Shown here: piece by piece, positions 30,275 through 64,000 of the stretch
Position numbering within the stretch: the first letter of the stretch is position 1
Layout: every line of letters begins with the position of its first letter
Source of the DNA: an uncultured delta proteobacterium
Lineage (GTDB): Bacteria; Desulfobacterota; Syntrophia; Syntrophales; UBA8958
Direction of reading: 5' to 3'
Assembly (NCBI GenBank): GCA_903885795.1
Contig: CAISJV010000052.1
Location: forward strand, 68,592 to 132,591
DNA length: 64,000 nucleotides
Notes under the pieces: generated by a model
The model's database searches: none
Told to the model about the DNA's origin: nothing
The model's input: only the letters and a program-made list of their open reading frames with translations
Position numbers and translations under genes: made by a program

Positions 30275-30400
30275 ATTCCGCTTCTAAATCAAAGATGATA
30301 TCAAGGCGGCAAGGCAGAGGCGACGCAGGCGTATTTCTCATACGTCGAGGAGCCGATGGCCGCTGCCAACGAAGATAGCGCTTTGATTCAGAAGCGGAAT
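30275..30400. repeat. 126-bp palindromic element (copy 2)
   Basis: Ends ATTCCGCTTCTAAATCAAAG and CTTTGATTCAGAAGCGGAAT pair with 19 of 20 positions. The centre GGCGTATTTCTCATACG forms a hairpin. It is about 87 percent or better identical by eye to the copy at 58502-58626 and shares its length and central layout with the one at 24284. It lies in the pgi upstream region. Confidence 0.8.
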
Positions 30401-55964: not shown

Positions 55965-56510
55965 TTAACCGGCGGGTGGTGCTTGACATATATCCCCAGC
56001 CATCGCCAGGAGTGCCGAACCGACGGCCTGCTTGTGCTCCAACATTACCAGGCGAGCAATGCTGCCGGGGCCGAACAGAAGTTCTCCTAACCCGCTTGCA
56101 TCTATTTCAAGAAGGACCGCCAAAACCCTGGGCCCGTGACGGTGGAGCATTGCCTCAACGTTCCGGTAAAAGCGCTCGGCTCCGTCGTTTGCCAGGAGAA
56201 GCAACCGGGAGACGCGTACCCCCCGCGTTACACCGATTTGCCTGTCTGCCATTCGGAGGCCTCGCCCCTCAGAGGCTAGTTTTCGCTCCGCACTCTCCAA
56301 ACCACGGATCAATTGTCCGGCACCGTGTGCTTTCCGCAGTGCCTCTGCCAGTTCCAAATTCAGTCTGGCCACCGGCACATCAAGCTCGCTTTCCCTCCAC
56401 AACGGCTGTGTGTTAGCGGTCAGGCTGCGGAGTAGTTGCGGCCCCCGCGGATCGGACTCGACCAGCTTTGGCAAACGCAGCGCTTTATTTGCAGGAGTAT
56501 CTACTCGCAT
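55965..56510 (-). CDS. Hypothetical protein
   Basis: A 181-residue helical, Leu/Arg/Ala-rich protein I cannot place. It contains VARLNLELAEALRKAHGAGQLIRGLESAERK, MADRQIGVTRGVRV and LLFGPGSIARLVMLEHKQAVGSALLAM. Codon use and length favour a real gene. There is no signal peptide or membrane segment. It lies between the ywbE/yaiI pair and the DEAD-box gene, without clear operon links. Confidence 0.55.
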   Translation of the reverse strand: MRVDTPANKALRLPKLVESDPRGPQLLRSLTANTQPLWRESELDVPVARLNLELAEALRKAHGAGQLIRGLESAERKLASEGRGLRMADRQIGVTRGVRVSRLLLLANDGAERFYRNVEAMLHRHGPRVLAVLLEIDASGLGELLFGPGSIARLVMLEHKQAVGSALLAMAGDICQAPPAG

Positions 56511-56817
56511 GATTATGCTTTCTCATCCAACATCGCTATCGACGGATATGGTAGGTCTGCTTCTTAATAGATCAGCACTAGACAAGAATTCTTTCTGGCG
56601 CGACTATAAGAAAGATTTGGACTATCCGTCAAGACAAAAAGATCTTACGTTTAGGCTAATATGGATAAAGATTTGCTTTCCCCGTTGACTAAGTGTATGA
56701 AGAGCAACTTGGTGAGTCCATATATCTGTCCTGTGCACCCCCGTAGTATCCGGGTTGACTACTGCATTATCGCTACTGCACTCTCCTGAAACCAACAAAT
56801 GATCGGATAAAAAGGCC
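56511..56817. other. Leader region upstream of DEAD-box helicase gene
   Basis: 307 AT-rich bases before deaD. A long untranslated leader is common for cold-shock helicase genes, but no cold-shock box was recognised. TTGACT near 56755 has no good -10 partner. Nothing else seen. Confidence 0.4.
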
Positions 56818-58482
56818 ATGACATTCAAAGAATTAAGCATCGATAAAAGAATTTTGAAGGCAATTGCGGAAATGGGATTTGAAACTCCGATGCCCGTTCA
56901 GGAAGAGGTAATCCCTTTTCTATTGAAGGAGACAAGGGACCTCGTCGCCCTTGCTCATACGGGAACAGGCAAGACGGCAGCATTCGGGATACCCATCATT
57001 CAAAAGGTCGATCAATCTTCATCGAAAACACAGGCCCTGATCCTGGCCCCCACCCGGGAGCTTTGTATGCAGATAACCGACGATTTAAGCCACTTTGCCA
57101 AACATATGGACGGTTTGAATATTGTGCCCATCTACGGGGGGGCCAGTATTCTGACCCAGATCAGGCAGATTGCCGCGGGCGCACAGATAGTTGTGGCCAC
57201 CCCCGGCAGAATGCTTGATATGCTGAAGCGGAGAAAGGTTGATGTTTCCGCCATCAGTTGGCTGGTCCTGGACGAGGCAGATGAAATGCTGAACATGGGA
57301 TTCAAGGAAGATTTGAACGCCATATTGTCCGGGACTCCAGCCAGTAAAAGGGTTTTGCTGTTTTCAGCGACCATGGCCAAGGAAATTGAAGGTATCGCCC
57401 AGAGTTATATGAAAAACCCCGTGGCGATTACCATTGGCGCCAAAAATACGGGGGCGGAAAATGTTCACCATCAGTACTATGTCGTCCATGCCAAGGACCG
57501 ATATATAGCATTGAAAAGGATTGCTGATTATTATCCCGATATATATGCGATCATTTTTTGCCGGACAAAAATTGAAACCCAGGAAATTGCCGATGCCCTC
57601 ATCAAAGACGGCTATAACGCCGACTCCCTGCACGGCGATCTTTCGCAGCCCCAGCGGGACAGCGTCATGGGCCGCTTCAGAAGCAGAAATCTGCAAATGC
57701 TCGTGGCAACCGATGTTGCGGCCAGAGGAATAGATGTGACGGATTTAACCCATATCATCAACTATAACCTCCCCGACGATATTGAATACTATACCCACCG
57801 GAGCGGACGCACGGGCAGGGCCGGCAAATCAGGCATTTCCATTGTTATTGTCAATTTGAAGGAAATTTTCAAGATCAGGCAGATTGAAAAACAGATTGGG
57901 AAGAAATTTGCGGCCGTAAAAATCCCCACGGGCAGTGAAGTCTGTGAAAAGCAACTCTATCACCTCGTTGACAAGATGAAGAACACCGAGATTCAGCATC
58001 AGGAAATCGAAGCCTTTTTGCCGGCGATCTATGAACAGCTACAAGGAATCGGCAAGGAAGAAATCATCCAGCGCTTTGTCTCAGCCGAATTTAATCGCTT
58101 TTTAAGCTATTACCGGGATGCCCCCGATATCAATGTTGAATTGAAAAAAAGGGAAGGCAGCTCCGGCGTCGCCCGTCTGTTCGTCAATATGGGGCTGATG
58201 GAAAGATTCACGCCGAAAAGTATCAAAACATATCTCGTGGAAACGTCAAAAATTGCGGATCTTCGTATTATTAATGTTGATGTCATGAAAAGCTGCTCTT
58301 TCTTTGAGACGGATGCGGGGCAGGCAGCTCCTCTGATTGCGGCATTTAAAAAAGTTGGATTCAAAGGCCGCCGGGTTCATATCGAGTATGCCGACCGAAA
58401 ATACAACAAGGAAAAGGGAAATAAGGGCTTTTCAAAAACCCGAGATTTCTCCTTCGCGAATAAAAAAAGAAAACGGTTCTAG
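56818..58482 (+). CDS. deaD: DEAD-box ATP-dependent RNA helicase
   Basis: RNA helicase of 554 residues used in ribosome assembly or mRNA turnover. Q motif GFETPMPVQEEVIP, motif I AHTGTGKTAAF, Ia PTRELCMQI, II VLDEADEML, III FSATM, IV-VI including VATDVAARGIDV and HRSGRTGRAG are intact. After a 100-residue helical dimerisation segment the C terminus has a DbpA-like RNA-binding domain (ARLFVNMGLMERFTPKSIKTYL, DLRIINVDVMKSCSFFE). A Lys-rich tail (KKRKRF) follows. It most resembles DeaD/CsdA of anaerobes. Confidence 0.93.
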   Translation: MTFKELSIDKRILKAIAEMGFETPMPVQEEVIPFLLKETRDLVALAHTGTGKTAAFGIPIIQKVDQSSSKTQALILAPTRELCMQITDDLSHFAKHMDGLNIVPIYGGASILTQIRQIAAGAQIVVATPGRMLDMLKRRKVDVSAISWLVLDEADEMLNMGFKEDLNAILSGTPASKRVLLFSATMAKEIEGIAQSYMKNPVAITIGAKNTGAENVHHQYYVVHAKDRYIALKRIADYYPDIYAIIFCRTKIETQEIADALIKDGYNADSLHGDLSQPQRDSVMGRFRSRNLQMLVATDVAARGIDVTDLTHIINYNLPDDIEYYTHRSGRTGRAGKSGISIVIVNLKEIFKIRQIEKQIGKKFAAVKIPTGSEVCEKQLYHLVDKMKNTEIQHQEIEAFLPAIYEQLQGIGKEEIIQRFVSAEFNRFLSYYRDAPDINVELKKREGSSGVARLFVNMGLMERFTPKSIKTYLVETSKIADLRIINVDVMKSCSFFETDAGQAAPLIAAFKKVGFKGRRVHIEYADRKYNKEKGNKGFSKTRDFSFANKKRKRF

Positions 58483-58501
58483 ACCGTCCATATCGGACCT
58501 G

Positions 58502-58626
58502 ATTCCGTTTCTAAATCAAAGATGAAATCAAGGCGGCAAGGAAGAGGCGACGCAGGCGTATTGTTTATACGTCGAGGAGCCGATGACGATGCCAACGCAG
58601 ATATCGCTTTGATTTAGAACCGGAAT
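58502..58626. repeat. 125-bp palindromic element (copy 3)
   Basis: Ends ATTCCGTTTCTAAATCAAAG and CTTTGATTTAGAACCGGAAT are inverted repeats; the centre GGCGTATTGTTTATACG forms a hairpin. It lies between the convergent ends of deaD and the permease gene and shares sequence along its whole length with copy 2 at 30275-30400. Confidence 0.8.
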
Positions 58627-58632
58627 GTCATC

Positions 58633-60354
58633 CTATTCCATCTTGAACCAAATATAGGTCGTCCCGGAAATCTCCGCCTGGTGGAGGTCGTGGACGACAT
58701 TTCTGAACAAGGCCAATCCCAGACGGTCCAGCTCCGGTTCATCAGCCGCCATGAGATTTTCAGGCATTTTGACATCTTCCAGGTTGGCAAGGCGCTTGCC
58801 ATAAATCATCTCTACGTGCAGTTCTCCTTCGTAAAGATTAATCCGCAGCGCCAAGGCGTTATCCTCTTCGCCTTCCCCCGAACCGGTAATGTGAACAAAG
58901 ATTTCTTCACAGGCCAACTGGAGGCGAAGGATTTGTTCCTGTGTGATATCAAGCTTGTCGCCAACCTGGGAAATATGATCTGCCAGAACCGGCAGATTGT
59001 CCAGTCCGGCCGGGACCGTGGTCGTATAACCGCGCCTTTCCGTCAGATGGAAAAGCAGACTCAGGATAACCGCCGTCAGACCTCCGGCAGCAACGCCGCT
59101 ATTCAAAAACACACTCAGGGAAATGGGGAAAAGATTGGGAAAGAATCTTCCCGATTCCGCAATCAAACCTACGCACAGGGAAATACCGAGGAGCAGGCCC
59201 GAGCGATGGGTGATGCCTCGGGAAAATACGAGCTCCAGCCCCGATGGTATCATCATGGCGGCCAATCCCATCAGGAAACCGCCAAAAACGGGAGAAGGCA
59301 GGTTGACCAAGGCCATACTCAACTTTGGGGAAAATGGCAGGGCGATGAGCATGAGCGCGCCGCAGACGCCGACGGTGCGACTGGCCACACCAGTGATTTT
59401 TTGCACGGAGAGATTTTCCGAGTAGGTCTCGTTGGGGATGGTCCCCATGAAACCGGTGATGACGTTACCCAGGGCGTCGCCGTACATGGTCCCTTGGACA
59501 ACCTTGTAATTAATGGGGCGGGGTTGGCGATGGGATATCTGTTGCACGGCCATGCTGTTGCCGATGGCCTGCACGCCATTGATAACTGTGAGGACGGCCA
59601 GGGCTGCAAACAATGGTAAATAATCGATATTAAGATCAAAGGTTAAACCCGGCCAGGAGCCCGGGAATGCCCCCAGCCAGGGGTGGGCCAGGAGATCGTG
59701 GAATTGAAACTGCCCCAGCACCCGAGCGGTAAAGAGACCGCCGGCCATGCCGATCAGGGGGCACCAGAGCCTCAGGAACCTGTTGCCAAAGAGGGACAAC
59801 CCCAGCAGGATACTCACAGCGGCAAGTCCCGTGAGCAGGTTTTCCCAGGAATTATAGAAGTTGCTCCCTTTTTCGCCTACCCACTCCTGGATGCCTACGG
59901 GCACCAGACTCAGGCAGACGAGGAGGAGGATCGCGCCGCCAACGGTGGGTGTGACAATATGGCGCAAATGGCGCAGGAAATAGGCCATCAGGATCTCAAT
60001 GGGGGCCACCAGGATGCTCAGAGTGGCCAAAAGGGGAAAGCCGCCCGCCCTGATGGTTTCTATGCTGCCGGCCATATAAGCGGCCGAACTGCCCATGAAC
60101 AAAGTATAACCTGCGCCGAACCGGCCTAACCGCAAGACTTGGATCATAGTGATGATGCCGGAGGTGAACCCGGCGGCGCAGGAGGCAAAAAGAATGTGTT
60201 CCATGGGAGCCCCGGCATGCCTGCCGATGATCACCGGCAGCAGCGATATCTCGCTGTAGACCAGCATCACATGTTGCATCCCCATTATAATGGCCAGCCA
60301 CAGGGGTGTTTTGTCATTAACTTCGTAAAGGAGATTGTTGGACTTGAGGCTCAT
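58633..60354 (-). CDS. NCS2 xanthine/uracil permease fused to a GHKL-type ATPase-like domain
   Basis: Residues 1 to about 430 are a nucleobase:cation symporter-2 permease: PLWLAIIMGMQHVMLVYSEISLLPVII, ILFASCAAGFTSGIITMIQVLRLG, GAILLLVCLSLVPVGI and NVITGFMGTIPNETYSENL. The last 140 residues are not membrane-like. QILRLQLACEEIFVHITGSGE and LGLALFRNVVHDLHQAE recall the N and G boxes of RsbW/anti-sigma HATPase domains, although the N-box Asn is His. This arrangement is unusual and could link purine uptake to signalling. ATG 60354 is preferred to TTG 60363. The gene is isolated, convergent with deaD across a palindromic element. Confidence 0.85.
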   Translation of the reverse strand: MSLKSNNLLYEVNDKTPLWLAIIMGMQHVMLVYSEISLLPVIIGRHAGAPMEHILFASCAAGFTSGIITMIQVLRLGRFGAGYTLFMGSSAAYMAGSIETIRAGGFPLLATLSILVAPIEILMAYFLRHLRHIVTPTVGGAILLLVCLSLVPVGIQEWVGEKGSNFYNSWENLLTGLAAVSILLGLSLFGNRFLRLWCPLIGMAGGLFTARVLGQFQFHDLLAHPWLGAFPGSWPGLTFDLNIDYLPLFAALAVLTVINGVQAIGNSMAVQQISHRQPRPINYKVVQGTMYGDALGNVITGFMGTIPNETYSENLSVQKITGVASRTVGVCGALMLIALPFSPKLSMALVNLPSPVFGGFLMGLAAMMIPSGLELVFSRGITHRSGLLLGISLCVGLIAESGRFFPNLFPISLSVFLNSGVAAGGLTAVILSLLFHLTERRGYTTTVPAGLDNLPVLADHISQVGDKLDITQEQILRLQLACEEIFVHITGSGEGEEDNALALRINLYEGELHVEMIYGKRLANLEDVKMPENLMAADEPELDRLGLALFRNVVHDLHQAEISGTTYIWFKME

Positions 60355-60363
60355 TGAAGACAA

Positions 60364-60899
60364 ACCGTCCTGCCACTTTTTTGAATATACCGTACCACAT
60401 GCCTGATGTGATGATAAGAAAAATGAACTCCTCCGGATTCTCCTCGGTCTGTAATAATTTTACGGGACTGACGCAAAACATCGTAAAAAACCCTTCATGA
60501 CCATCGTGAAATAAATGAAGTCCATATGCGATCTTGAGATCACATCAAGCAAAGACGGTAACTTCTGGCCCGTCAGGTAATATGTATTCTGATTTGTAAA
60601 TCACTGTTAAAAACAATTCGCTGGTTTTTCTGGATTATTTCAGCTCTTACACATTTCAGTCGTAAATTATTAAGGAGCCCGCCAGTAGGGAAGGCCTTCC
60701 CTACATCGCAGGAAATGATTCCATAGTTACTGATCTATAATCCCTCCGAGCGCGTTGAACGCACCATCTTGCCCGCATAAATGTTCTATAATTTTAGCAT
60801 GTTAACATTTAATGTTTTTATCTTGGTGGTTGGCATAGGGTTTGCTGGTATAACAGGCCGGCTTTCTAAAGGTTCTCAGTAAGATCATAAAAGCTACAG
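60364..60899. other. Intergenic, AT-rich
   Basis: About 530 bases upstream of the divergent permease gene and before the gvpA fragment. No credible gene or RNA was recognised. It marks the beginning of the degraded AT-rich end of the window. Confidence 0.4.
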
Positions 60900-60917
60900 A
60901 TGGAGGAAGAAACAACA

Positions 60918-61085
60918 ATGGCAAAAGTGCAGAAATCAACGGATTCTTCGGGATTAGCGGAAATTGTCGACCGTATCCTCGCCAAAGTAGGGGTATCCCC
61001 ACTATCAAGACAAAAAATTGGGCTGTACTTGGTGCGTAATCAGGCCGTCTGTTTTGTTTGTAGGCTTACACGTTCTTTGGCATAA
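60918..61085 (+). pseudogene. gvpA: Truncated gas vesicle protein GvpA start
   Basis: MAKVQKSTDSSGLAEIVDRI then LAK is a strong match to the N terminus of the major gas vesicle protein, which normally continues KGVVIDAW. Here, after residue 23, it becomes VGVSPLSRQKIG and unrelated residues to a stop at 61085, so only the first third of gvpA remains. GGAGGAAG precedes the ATG, as in a real gene. No other gvp gene is in the window. It is a remnant of a lost gas vesicle cluster, not a functional gene. Confidence 0.65.
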
Positions 61086-61193
61086 ATTCCATAAAGGGAT
61101 TTATAAACCAGAGATTCATGAACTCTCTCAGTTTTGTAGAAATGGAAGTAACTTCTTGTGGCTAACCAAAAACGGATAACCCCTCTTTTTATA

Positions 61194-61221
61194 TGGTGCG
61201 CCCAGCAAGATTCGAACCTCC
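61194..61221 (-). tRNA. tRNA 3'-end fragment (pseudo-tRNA or attachment-site remnant)
   Basis: On the minus strand GGAGGTTCGAATC then TTGCTGGGCGCACCA is a T-arm loop (GGTTCGAATC), acceptor strand and encoded CCA end. The T-stem is imperfect (GGAGG against CTTGC) and no good partner anticodon arm exists within a normal 76 bases; a weak 5' match (GCGTCCC near 61274) would make an 81-base molecule with an overlong anticodon loop. It is not scored as functional. Such 3' ends are often left by integrating elements. Confidence 0.45.
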
Positions 61222-61250
61222 GTCAAAGAGGTGGTTTTTTCAAGATCTCG

Positions 61251-61442
61251 TTATATTACCTTACACAGGGACGCCAGAATATTCCCTGATACACCCATAT
61301 TTCCCCATTTTGTCTCAACCCAAAGGTCGGGGTCGGGGAAGATATCAATGCGATGCTTGCATTTCGGACAAGAAAGACCATATCCATACCGCAAAACTGC
61401 AAACTCCTTTTCACAGTACGGGCAAATGCCTGTGTCCTCCAT
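61251..61442 (-). CDS. Small zinc-ribbon protein
   Basis: A 63-residue product, MEDTGICPYCEKEFAVLRYG, then YGLSCPKCKHRIDIFPDPDLWVETKWG. Two CPxC knuckles form a zinc ribbon. AAGGAGG five bases before the ATG at 61442 is a strong ribosome binding site. The protein family is not named by me. The final residues (LASLCKVI) run into the tRNA-like fragment. In degraded surroundings it seems a rare intact gene. Confidence 0.5.
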   Translation of the reverse strand: MEDTGICPYCEKEFAVLRYGYGLSCPKCKHRIDIFPDPDLWVETKWGNMGVSGNILASLCKVI

Positions 61443-62141
61443 AAGTCCTCCTTTTGAACGTCTTAATTCACGCATTTTGCCGCGCTTCGCGGCATCCAAA
61501 CTCATGGCAACCAAAGTCGGGTGCACTGAAAACCTATTTTTCTGGAGTGGGGGGATACGACGGGAGGGCTTATTTGTCAAGAAGATTTTGACGGCAATTA
61601 TTTTATCGAAATGGTGTGATAAAAGCTAATAATGTTGCCTATAAAACGTTCGTAATCATCGGCACGAATAACGGCCATACAACGGTTTTGATTGATTCTT
61701 TGATTTCAGGGGAAATATTTTCCATAGTAGGTAGTATACTCTCAAGAGTTGCCAATGGAGGTTCTTTTCACGTTCCACAGGGATGCAAGCAACCGAAAGG
61801 GTTTGTCAACTCAGTTTGTCGCGTCAGCCACGCATAGTATCAAGATGAGCCACGCCACGATTCATATATGAGAAGTCCACCATGACTAGGAAGAAAAAAG
61901 ATGTTCCGAAAAAGATTGACGAACTCTTTCATGCCTGTTCTGCCTCATGAGGCGTAAGGCGATGTCTGATACCATTAGTGATTCTGACGTTTATGCGATC
62001 TTGAAAATCAGTAATCTGATTTTTTGAGCTCTTCTTCCTGCTATACGTAACAAAATGATGGTTGACAGATTTTAGGTAAGCGGTAATTATCTATCTGTTT
62101 TTCTTATTGAAACATTTAATAAGGAGACAGAGATGACCAGC
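61443..62141. other. Degraded AT-rich region, no supported gene
   Basis: About 700 bases with only accidental frames. A 22-codon frame MTRKKKDVPKKIDELFHACSAS at 61882-61950 is vaguely like the start of an IS256-type transposase but stops at once. No hairpins or promoters stand out. Confidence 0.4.
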
Positions 62142-62348
62142 AGAAGCTTAGATTTTCATCAGACAAGGCTTCCTCCGGCTCTTCTCCCGGAGACCATCTA
62201 ATCAATGCTCTTCATAGGTCTATTTGATGTCGTAGAAATGCTGACGTGATACACCGTTGATCTTGCAGGCTTGAGAGACGTTCTGAAGATATTCAGCCAT
62301 CTCTATTAAACTCTGCTTTTTTCTGATAAGCTTTTCCTGGGTGGTCAT
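62142..62348 (-). pseudogene. Transposase N-terminal remnant (IS481/IS3-like)
   Basis: From ATG 62348 with AAGGAGG upstream it reads MTTQEKLIRKKQSLIEMAEY, then NVSQACKINGVSRQHFYDIK and a TAG. Past the TAG the same frame continues TYEEH, TGA, LDGLREKSRRKPCLMKI and another stop. The helix-turn-helix (SQACK..GVSRQ.FYDIK) and SRRKP tail are typical N-terminal parts of IS481-type transposases. It therefore has three in-frame stops and lacks the DDE domain. It is a decayed insertion sequence, IS type inferred. Confidence 0.65.
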
Positions 62349-62551
62349 GATTTATTTCCTCCTTGAACTTGATCGCTGCTAACAATCCAGGAGGTAATCT
62401 GACCACCTTTTACAACTGATTGTCAACTCAAATTCGTCTTCTCCCAGCTCATTGAATGACCGTCCTCCCGCTCCTGAATCTTGGTTGCACTGAAGAACAT
62501 ACAATGGCAGGATTCTAACTTAACATGTGGTAAAAGTTTCGGGGGCAGGTC

Positions 62552-62984
62552 ACCTGTAGGGCAATTTCTAAACCGCTACCTCAAGTTCTCCCTTCACCCG
62601 GCTATAGAAAATTGAAGAACCAGGATCTGCTCTGATTGAAGATACAAGTGAATAATGTTCAGCGCCCTGTTCAGAAACCATCCTGGCAATCTCGTAGGAC
62701 TATGTAAAATCGACTTTAAAGAAGTTATCTTTCGTTTCCGCCTTATTGATAGTCCTTCCCAGAGCGCATATGACATGATCTGCCTTGATGAAGTGGCGAT
62801 ATTCTCCAAGGTGCTCAAAGTCGATAATGTGGCGTTCAACTCTGGAATTCTTAATATCCGTTGTTAATGGTGAGCGCGTCAGAACCTTGATTTTTCAATA
62901 GTAATTGTCCTGGATAAGTAGCTTCAGACATTCCCCACCGACCAGGCCGGAGGCACCAAGAAGGAGTACGGATTTGTTATTCAT
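62552..62984 (-). pseudogene. NAD(P)-binding oxidoreductase (HTATIP2/YwnB-like) with nonsense codons
   Basis: Translating from ATG 62984 gives MNNKSVLLLGASGLVGGECL then LIQDNYY and TGA; KIKVLTRSPLTTD... HVICALGRTINKAETKDNFF then VDFT and TAG; SYEIARMVSEQGAEHYSLVS then SIRADPGSSIFYSRVKGELEVAV and TAG, then KLPYR. GASGLVG is the NAD-binding loop and SSIFYSRVKGELE the catalytic YxxxK region. So one frame aligns with a complete domain to about residue 140 but has three nonsense codons of two kinds. It is a pseudogene. Confidence 0.75.
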
Positions 62985-63235
62985 TACATGCTCCCAGTCC
63001 AAAGATCTTTCAATCTTTTAATCTGTATTAAGAAATTGCCATGATTATTTTGAAAGTCCAAAACTTATCTCCTGAAGCATGAGATGAAACACGTTATGGC
63101 GCATCTCCGTTATGGCTTCCAGTTTGGCCATGATCGTTGATCCTGCAATTTAATCAACTCCCGATTAAATTTTTCATTACCAGAAAAACGCAGGATCCGG
63201 CGCTTTTGGCGATAAAACGCACTGGGGTTCGTTTT

Positions 63236-63502
63236 TCATGTCAAAGATTTATGCCCTGCATACAGGAAAATCTTGGATTCTCCTTCTTCTATGGATAAAA
63301 TGGTCCCTTCTTCAACCAATAATCCCAGGACTGAAGAGGTCATGGAAAGCAGATTCCGGTATGTTCCCAAGAATATTGATTGTTGCTGCAATTGAGTGCA
63401 TATTTCGGAAAAAGTAATTCCATCAGGATTCTGCTTGATCAGGCCTTTCACAGCTTCCTTTGTCCTGCATGGCTCTTTAGATATCTTTTCGTAGTCCATC
63501 AC
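63236..63502 (-). CDS. Small predicted winged-helix-like protein
   Basis: An 88-residue frame, MMDYEKISKEPCRTKEAVKG then LIKQNPDGITFSEICTQLQQ, ending EGTILSIEEGESKIFLYAGHKSLT. The helix-helix-turn-helix-strand order (KGLIKQNPDGITFSEICTQL...LLVEEGTILSIEEG) looks like a winged helix. AAAGGTG lies just before the start. I cannot name it, and in this AT-rich degraded area it could be spurious. Confidence 0.45.
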   Translation of the reverse strand: MMDYEKISKEPCRTKEAVKGLIKQNPDGITFSEICTQLQQQSIFLGTYRNLLSMTSSVLGLLVEEGTILSIEEGESKIFLYAGHKSLT

Positions 63503-63581
63503 CTTTATTTACGCTTTACCTTTAAATCTTTCCTTATAGATGGACATGTCATTACGATCATCAATAATCAGGAGTGTGTTT

Positions 63582-64000
63582 TCAAGATTTCTTGCTCTTG
63601 AAAAATCTGTAAACGGGGTAAATTGTCTTTTTCATGCAAACAGTCGGATTCCATTGAAGCCTCGCAATGGTCATGCAGTTATAATCCAAATTGTCATAAA
63701 AACGATCAATTGGTTTCCAACCTGCAGCCATTGCAATTTCTGCCGGTTCTCCCTCATATTTATATTTCATGTGCCATCCCCCTAAGCGCATTATAAAGTC
63801 TGTAAGAGGGTCCCCAAGAACCATTTTATTTTTCACCATGCTAAACACAATGATTCCACCCCAACGAGCATAGACAGTCAGGTTGCCGATAACCTTTTTG
63901 GAAATATCCGATTGTCTTGTGCAAAATATGCCTATCAACAGCAGCATGTCAAATTTGTCACCGCTGAAATCCTGGAGTTTTTTCTCCACGAAAGAGAAGC
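63582..64000 (-). CDS. SAM-dependent methyltransferase-like protein, C-terminal part (cut by window end)
   Basis: The frame is open through position 64000, so the start lies outside; a GTG at 63989 also exists. The visible 139 residues include FVEKKLQDFSGDKFDMLLLIGIF, the motif IV-like region of class I methyltransferases, then GGIIVFSM and YEGEPAEIAMAAGWKPIDRF, the last strands of the fold. The N-terminal SAM-binding motif is missing from the window. Substrate unknown. No overlap with its neighbour. Confidence 0.6.
   Translation of the reverse strand, partial: FSFVEKKLQDFSGDKFDMLLLIGIFCTRQSDISKKVIGNLTVYARWGGIIVFSMVKNKMVLGDPLTDFIMRLGGWHMKYKYEGEPAEIAMAAGWKPIDRFYDNLDYNCMTIARLQWNPTVCMKKTIYPVYRFFKSKKS

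Follow-up and report, generated by a model that had tools for sequence, protein, structure and literature searches.

The gene studied here raises the question of what a soluble, regulatory-looking tail is doing at the end of a membrane transporter. It lies in a 64,000-nucleotide stretch of DNA (the window) from an uncultured delta proteobacterium of the order Syntrophales. Tails of the signalling type, such as those of SLC26-STAS proteins and CbrA, illustrate how transporters have their uptake regulated or sensed. The gene was analysed with respect to its permease part, the fold and catalytic state of the tail, the distribution of the fusion and its possible partners.

Architecture of the Fused Gene

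The open reading frame 60354–58633 (−) encodes one polypeptide, whose 573 residues are counted from an ATG. A TTG at 60363, upstream of this ATG, is an alternative start that would add three residues; in orthologues L009 and L011 the frame starts at the equivalent of the ATG. The soluble part of the protein starts after about residue 438. The features of the gene are listed in Table 1.

Table 1. Features of the fused permease gene, with positions in the window
Feature	Position	Strand	Description
Whole fused gene	58633..60354	−	573 aa; NCS2 permease with a C-terminal degenerate RsbW-like GHKL domain
NCS2/SLC23 permease core	59047..60327	−	Residues ~10–436; predicted 7+7 fold, like UapA/UraA; PF00860 and AlphaFold2
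C-terminal RsbW/SpoIIAB-like GHKL domain	58636..59040	−	Residues 439–573 (~440–573)
Degenerate N-box LQLACEEIFVHI	58888..58923	−	Residues 478–489; Glu present, His in place of Asn
Degenerate G1-box region EMIYGKRLA	58792..58818	−	Residues 513–521; Asp of DxG missing; from alignment with the genome's RsbW-like proteins
Partial G2 box LGLALFRNVV	58693..58722	−	Residues 545–554
TM8 segment around GVQAIGNSMAVQQ	59536..59577	−	Residues 260–272; Gln262 at the UapA Glu356 site, Asn266 at the UapA Asp360 site
TM10 NAT-signature segment around YSENLSVQKITG	59386..59424	−	Residues 311–322; Glu313-Asn314 correspond to UapA Gln408-Asn409

The Permease Part

Residues 22–398 match the Pfam family PF00860 (E = 2.8e-45; 155.1 bits against a cut-off of 27). 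Among NCBI models, pbuX (xanthine permease) comes nearest, with a score under its own cut-off. The full-length AlphaFold2 model (pLDDT 82) has the 7+7 transmembrane fold of NCS2/SLC23 transporters. Its best PDB matches are UapA (E = 1.2e-17) and UraA, and it also matches SVCT1 and then SLC26 transporters.

The protein shares with UapA, UraA and XanP/PbuX (NCS2/SLC23, NAT) the Pfam family, the 7+7 fold, the TM1 Gln-His, the TM9 Asp and the TM10 Asn. In UapA, residues Q85, E356, D388 and N409 are irreplaceable (PMC3405029); Q85, D388 and N409 correspond to Q27, D293 and N314 in the window protein, whereas the TM8 residue E356 is replaced by Q262, so that the residue set of the UapA/UraA-type purine-proton symport site is incomplete. 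The same position is mostly Lys in one of the two fused lineages described below (lineage B) and in the unfused relatives of that lineage, and is Glu in two members of the other, lineage A (L051, L052). Because other NCS2 proteins in the set, both fused and unfused, carry Lys there, Q262 is, as judged from the residue comparison, relevant to mechanism and irrelevant to NCS2 membership. Since a Glu essential in UapA is Gln in the window protein, neither substrate nor coupling ion is to be assumed; the substrate is probably purine-like or a related small molecule.

The second difference from ordinary members, which stop soon after the last helix, is the tail itself. The original prediction would have been undermined by a tail common to all NCS2 permeases. 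This was checked: ordinary NCS2 proteins in the set end within about 4–26 residues of the same point past the last helix, and the fused ones extend 133–148 residues past it, except for L051 and L032, whose frames end early.

The Tail Has an RsbW/SpoIIAB-Type GHKL Fold

Taken alone, the window tail gives HATPase_c_2 as its best Pfam match (E = 0.0091; 16.5 bits against a cut-off of 27.4), and a GHKL call from this sequence by itself would be only suggestive. A set of orthologues was gathered within the phylum, with tail identities of 24–89%. HATPase_c_2 is matched by all 12 orthologue tails at E ≤ 1 (best 1.8e-6), at identities as low as 24–33%, and no other Pfam family is matched by more than one of the 12. 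In the PDB, the tail profile retrieves mycobacterial and B. subtilis RsbW (E = 0.005–0.03), and the full-length profile finds RsbW at 3.8e-5 across residues 442–563.

The AlphaFold2 model of the tail, like the full-length one a monomer built from a shallow alignment, has a pLDDT of 88, a pTM of 0.82 and the element order E-H-H-E-E-H-H-E-E. In Foldseek, SpoIIAB and RsbW/UsfX chains account for every one of its first 17 PDB matches (E from 1.1e-7; TM by query 0.55–0.76). When the tail profile is run against 395 genomes of the phylum, the fused permeases rank first, followed by weaker matches to other proteins. Four stand-alone matches of 136–156 aa were examined; all are genuine HATPase_c_2 proteins, and their VEEAxxN / AEEALVN, DxG and GGLG / GGIG motifs are intact.

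The tail thus has the Bergerat/GHKL fold of the HATPase_c_2 type by family profiles, PDB profiles and structure prediction alike. Its assignment to the RsbW/SpoIIAB type is firm, resting on the relatives, the AlphaFold model and the retrieval of stand-alone RsbW-like proteins. The fusion of an NCS2 permease to an RsbW-like domain, as originally proposed, is borne out, and the outcome that would have spoken against it, a model with no GHKL fold, did not occur. That the tail is an ordinary extension resembling GHKL by chance would fit the sub-threshold Pfam score of the window sequence, but is extremely improbable in view of the independent agreement of these three lines of evidence and the retrieval of stand-alone RsbW-like proteins with the tail profiles of both fused lineages.

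The ATP Site Is Degenerate throughout the Family

The two motifs on which the prediction was built are present as quoted and align with the N-box and G2 box of genuine HATPase_c_2 proteins. In two stand-alone proteins of the same genome (C11 and C82), the N-boxes aligned with LQLACEEIFVHI read ELAVEEALVNV and ELCVEEVLVNI, and the G2 boxes GGLGVFLIQRMV and GGLGIYFVRQLM align with LGLALFRNVV. The predicted substitution of the key N-box Asn was confirmed, and the residue is missing in 12 of the 12 lineage A members, being His in all except L052, which has Arg. The prediction had not included a further loss, that of the G1-box Asp: EMIYGKRLA aligns with EILDSGAPF and EIMDSGIPF of the genome's RsbW-like proteins. 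The G2 box is shrunk to LGL, with the double Gly missing. The N-box Glu is the sole invariant column in an alignment of 17 fused and genuine proteins.

The tail therefore resembles the RsbW/SpoIIAB anti-sigma kinases (HATPase_c_2) in fold, domain length, N-box Glu and part of G2, but lacks the rest of their kinase signature (N-box Asn, G1 Asp-x-Gly, Gly-rich G2 box), is membrane-tethered and has no adjoining STAS or sigma gene. Because the ATP-site residues are lost family-wide, GHKL biochemistry makes kinase activity or nucleotide sensing by the tail unlikely, and the fused protein is not expected to be a kinase. The original suggestion of a nucleotide sensor is accordingly disfavoured. A sensor or kinase in which the old pocket still binds ATP/GTP or a nucleobase could explain why a catalytic-type Glu is invariant in 17/17 proteins and why LGL is retained; the substitution of the N-box Asn in every lineage A member, the disappearance of the whole DxG motif and the G2 box without its double Gly make such a function very improbable.

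In M. smegmatis, RsbW1 is an anti-sigma factor with no kinase activity, and the kinase-negative RsbW3 antagonises RsbW1 by binding, for which the authors propose a heterodimer (PMC7693655). The RsbW fold of mycobacterial RsbW1/UsfX and RsbW3 is a binding module in these cases, and UsfX/RsbW, the closest PDB sequence to the tail, likewise lacks the N-box Asn. Unlike the window tail, these proteins are soluble, stand-alone and part of a known SigF circuit.

Distribution, History and Selection

The fusion occurs as one polypeptide in two lineages. Lineage A forms one clade with support of 100/100 in a permease-only tree and is present in 10–11 of the 395 sampled genomes of the phylum; lineage B is present in about 13 of the 395. 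Both occur in the window genome, where the lineage B copy is G000:C17. Lineage B is also found in Azospirillum, Pseudoroseomonas and Thiodictyon (Alpha- and Gammaproteobacteria) under the NCBI name "solute carrier family 23 protein". Its tail is more divergent, with HATPase_c_2 matched by 8 of 19 members (best 3e-6). A direct profile-profile comparison of the lineage A and B tails gives a probability of only 37% (E = 3.5e-4). Both tail profiles retrieve the same stand-alone protein, G449:C7, and this, together with the HATPase_c_2 matches of both, argues for a common origin of the tails. The permease tree, whose root is not fixed and in which unfused forms nest among lineage B, accommodates either one or two fusion events. 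The nested unfused proteins (440–450 aa, moderate support) suggest that the tail seems to have been lost at least once while the permease was kept, and hence that it is dispensable for transport.

Within the genus (four genomes), dN/dS is 0.09–0.17 for the tail and 0.08–0.12 for the core. Since the tail value is near that of the core, the tail is, on these ratios, maintained under purifying selection. In more distant pairs, dN is higher in the tail than in the core. In-frame stops were noted in two orthologues: a TAA at codon 15 in L010/L018 (G085), where a later start codon is available, and a TAG that cuts the tail short in L051 (G187). Either sequencing error or decay would account for them.

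The prediction also held that no standard NCS2 protein with such a domain was known. A broad class of fused proteins is in fact present in public genomes under a bland name, so this stands only as regards publications: among open-licence PMC papers, none was found on an NCS2 protein or other transporter fused to RsbW/GHKL/HATPase_c_2, an absence of little weight. The novelty is apparently that of a widespread, undescribed transporter architecture rather than of a unique protein. Many genomes encode, without a functional label, a 7+7 transporter fold joined to the RsbW half of a partner-switch pair; at least two lineages and two phyla are involved.

Genomic Neighbourhood

The fused gene has no conserved neighbour; flanking genes vary between genera, and those of the window gene are not conserved outside its genus. 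No STAS, sigma or RsbW gene lies beside the window gene or consistently beside its orthologues, and no riboswitch was found upstream by Rfam matching of 56500–64000. A search of the genome for anti-sigma antagonists, as recommended with the prediction, did yield candidates, namely two adjacent STAS-HATPase_c_2 pairs, five SpoIIE domains and five STAS domains, but all are away from the fused gene. In Thiodictyon, two fused permeases have a STAS gene and a SpoIIE gene within about 3–5 kb.

In one genus, a STAS-like DUF4325 gene is found 3′ of the fused permease (L087 3786–5081, L088 4753–5118). In one of the two genomes (L087/L088), a frame-broken ATPase whose N, G1 and G2 boxes are intact is located between the permease and the DUF4325 gene, and in L088 a 5′-nucleotidase is encoded upstream. 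A conserved operon partner was rejected, the 5′-nucleotidase and DUF4325 neighbours being limited to this genus. The purine-catabolism genes guaD and puuD were likewise discarded as conserved partners, as they occur near the fused lineage B gene in Azospirillum only.

The second fused permease of the window genome (L093 6285–9992, G000:C17) is preceded by CT_C_D and CT_A_B genes and by a short acylphosphatase-like ORF. The CT_C_D and CT_A_B genes correspond to 5-oxoprolinase PxpB/PxpC, formerly KipI/KipA; KipI of B. subtilis is reportedly a kinase inhibitor.

Proposed Role of the Tail

NCS2 proteins dimerise via their gate domains, and UapA functions as a dimer (PMC4837479); homodimers are also formed by RsbW-fold proteins (PMC7693655). 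Since NCS2 dimers keep their gate domains static and RsbW-fold proteins are themselves dimeric, two tails would probably pair beneath the dimeric transporter. The protein is an NCS2/SLC23-type transporter with a cytoplasmic, RsbW/SpoIIAB-derived tail that lacks the ATP/Mg-binding residues; this tail most likely serves as a non-catalytic dimerisation and docking platform that regulates the transporter or reports from it. The paired tails may bind each other or a partner of the STAS or RsbW-like type, which would link the state of the transporter to a cytoplasmic protein or control the gating of transport. If the tail docks partners, purine-type uptake would be tied to bacterial regulation in a way open to direct testing, and the tail would be a naturally occurring GHKL domain that selection has retained although it is catalytically dead.

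This role would parallel that of STAS on SLC26/SulP transporters, using the other half of the partner-switch pair. SLC26 proteins share the 7+7 fold with SLC23 and carry a regulatory STAS domain, giving a dimeric 7+7 transporter with a C-terminal partner-switch-type domain (PMC6497670). STAS has the anti-sigma-antagonist fold, whereas the window tail model matches SpoIIAB/RsbW and not STAS. The SSS transporter-histidine kinase fusions CbrA and MxtR also link a transporter to a GHKL-containing signalling unit; they belong to another transporter family and are active kinases with conserved N, D and G boxes and DHp and STAC domains (PMC7918813). The window protein has no DHp/HisKA or further Pfam domain, and its boxes are degenerate.

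The tail might instead act purely within the transporter, as a dimerisation or auto-inhibitory domain with no link to signalling proteins. We consider this rather unlikely, even though the lack of a conserved neighbouring partner gene, the degenerate ATP site, the dimeric functional unit of UapA (PMC4837479) and the similar constraint on tail and core among close relatives are all in its favour. Retention of the Glu and the G2-box segment, and descent from a protein-protein switching fold, suggest an interaction surface; the higher tail dN in distant pairs fits partner-driven as well as relaxed evolution.

Coupling of uptake to partner switching, as raised in the original prediction, would go further than docking. 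As a true input, nucleobase uptake would free or capture a STAS antagonist or RsbW-like protein and so shift a sigma-factor or phosphatase output. The two STAS + HATPase_c_2 pairs and five SpoIIE phosphatases of the genome, the precedent of RsbW3 acting by binding RsbW1 (PMC7693655), the Thiodictyon genes and the DUF4325 gene point in this direction. Each linkage is, however, confined to one genus, with none at the window locus, and such genes are common, so that finding them in the genome says little; we regard the input as unlikely. No neighbour is conserved, and the choice of any signalling partner is therefore a guess. On an equally tentative view, the proteins form a transceptor class in which a tethered pseudo-RsbW, able to capture STAS or RsbW-like proteins, is uncovered or buried by substrate-driven movement, nucleobase supply feeding a partner-switch circuit. 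Such a class of NCS2 transceptors would be the mirror image of SulP-STAS.

Additional Observations

The tail profile also matches larger frames of ~440–515 aa, namely L126 244–1557 (G194:C309) and about ten others. In the L126 frame, which spans 437 aa and matches no Pfam family, the N-terminal part contains a degenerate RsbW-like stretch, LATEELFLYL ... LDDLGLVLASRSVDRF; the long region after it is perhaps acetyltransferase-like, as judged by eye only. Frames of this type may represent a further family based on a dead RsbW domain.

A ~125-bp near-palindromic interspersed repeat lies just 3′ of the fused gene (58502–58626), with a second copy in the window at about 30275–30400. The genome contains about 30 near-full-length copies (41 matches; 77–96% identity), four relatives of the genus have 10–34 matches, and in G060 a copy occupies the equivalent place beside the orthologue. 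The repeat has no Rfam match, folds far better than shuffled sequences (z −6.6) and resembles a MITE or a large REP element.
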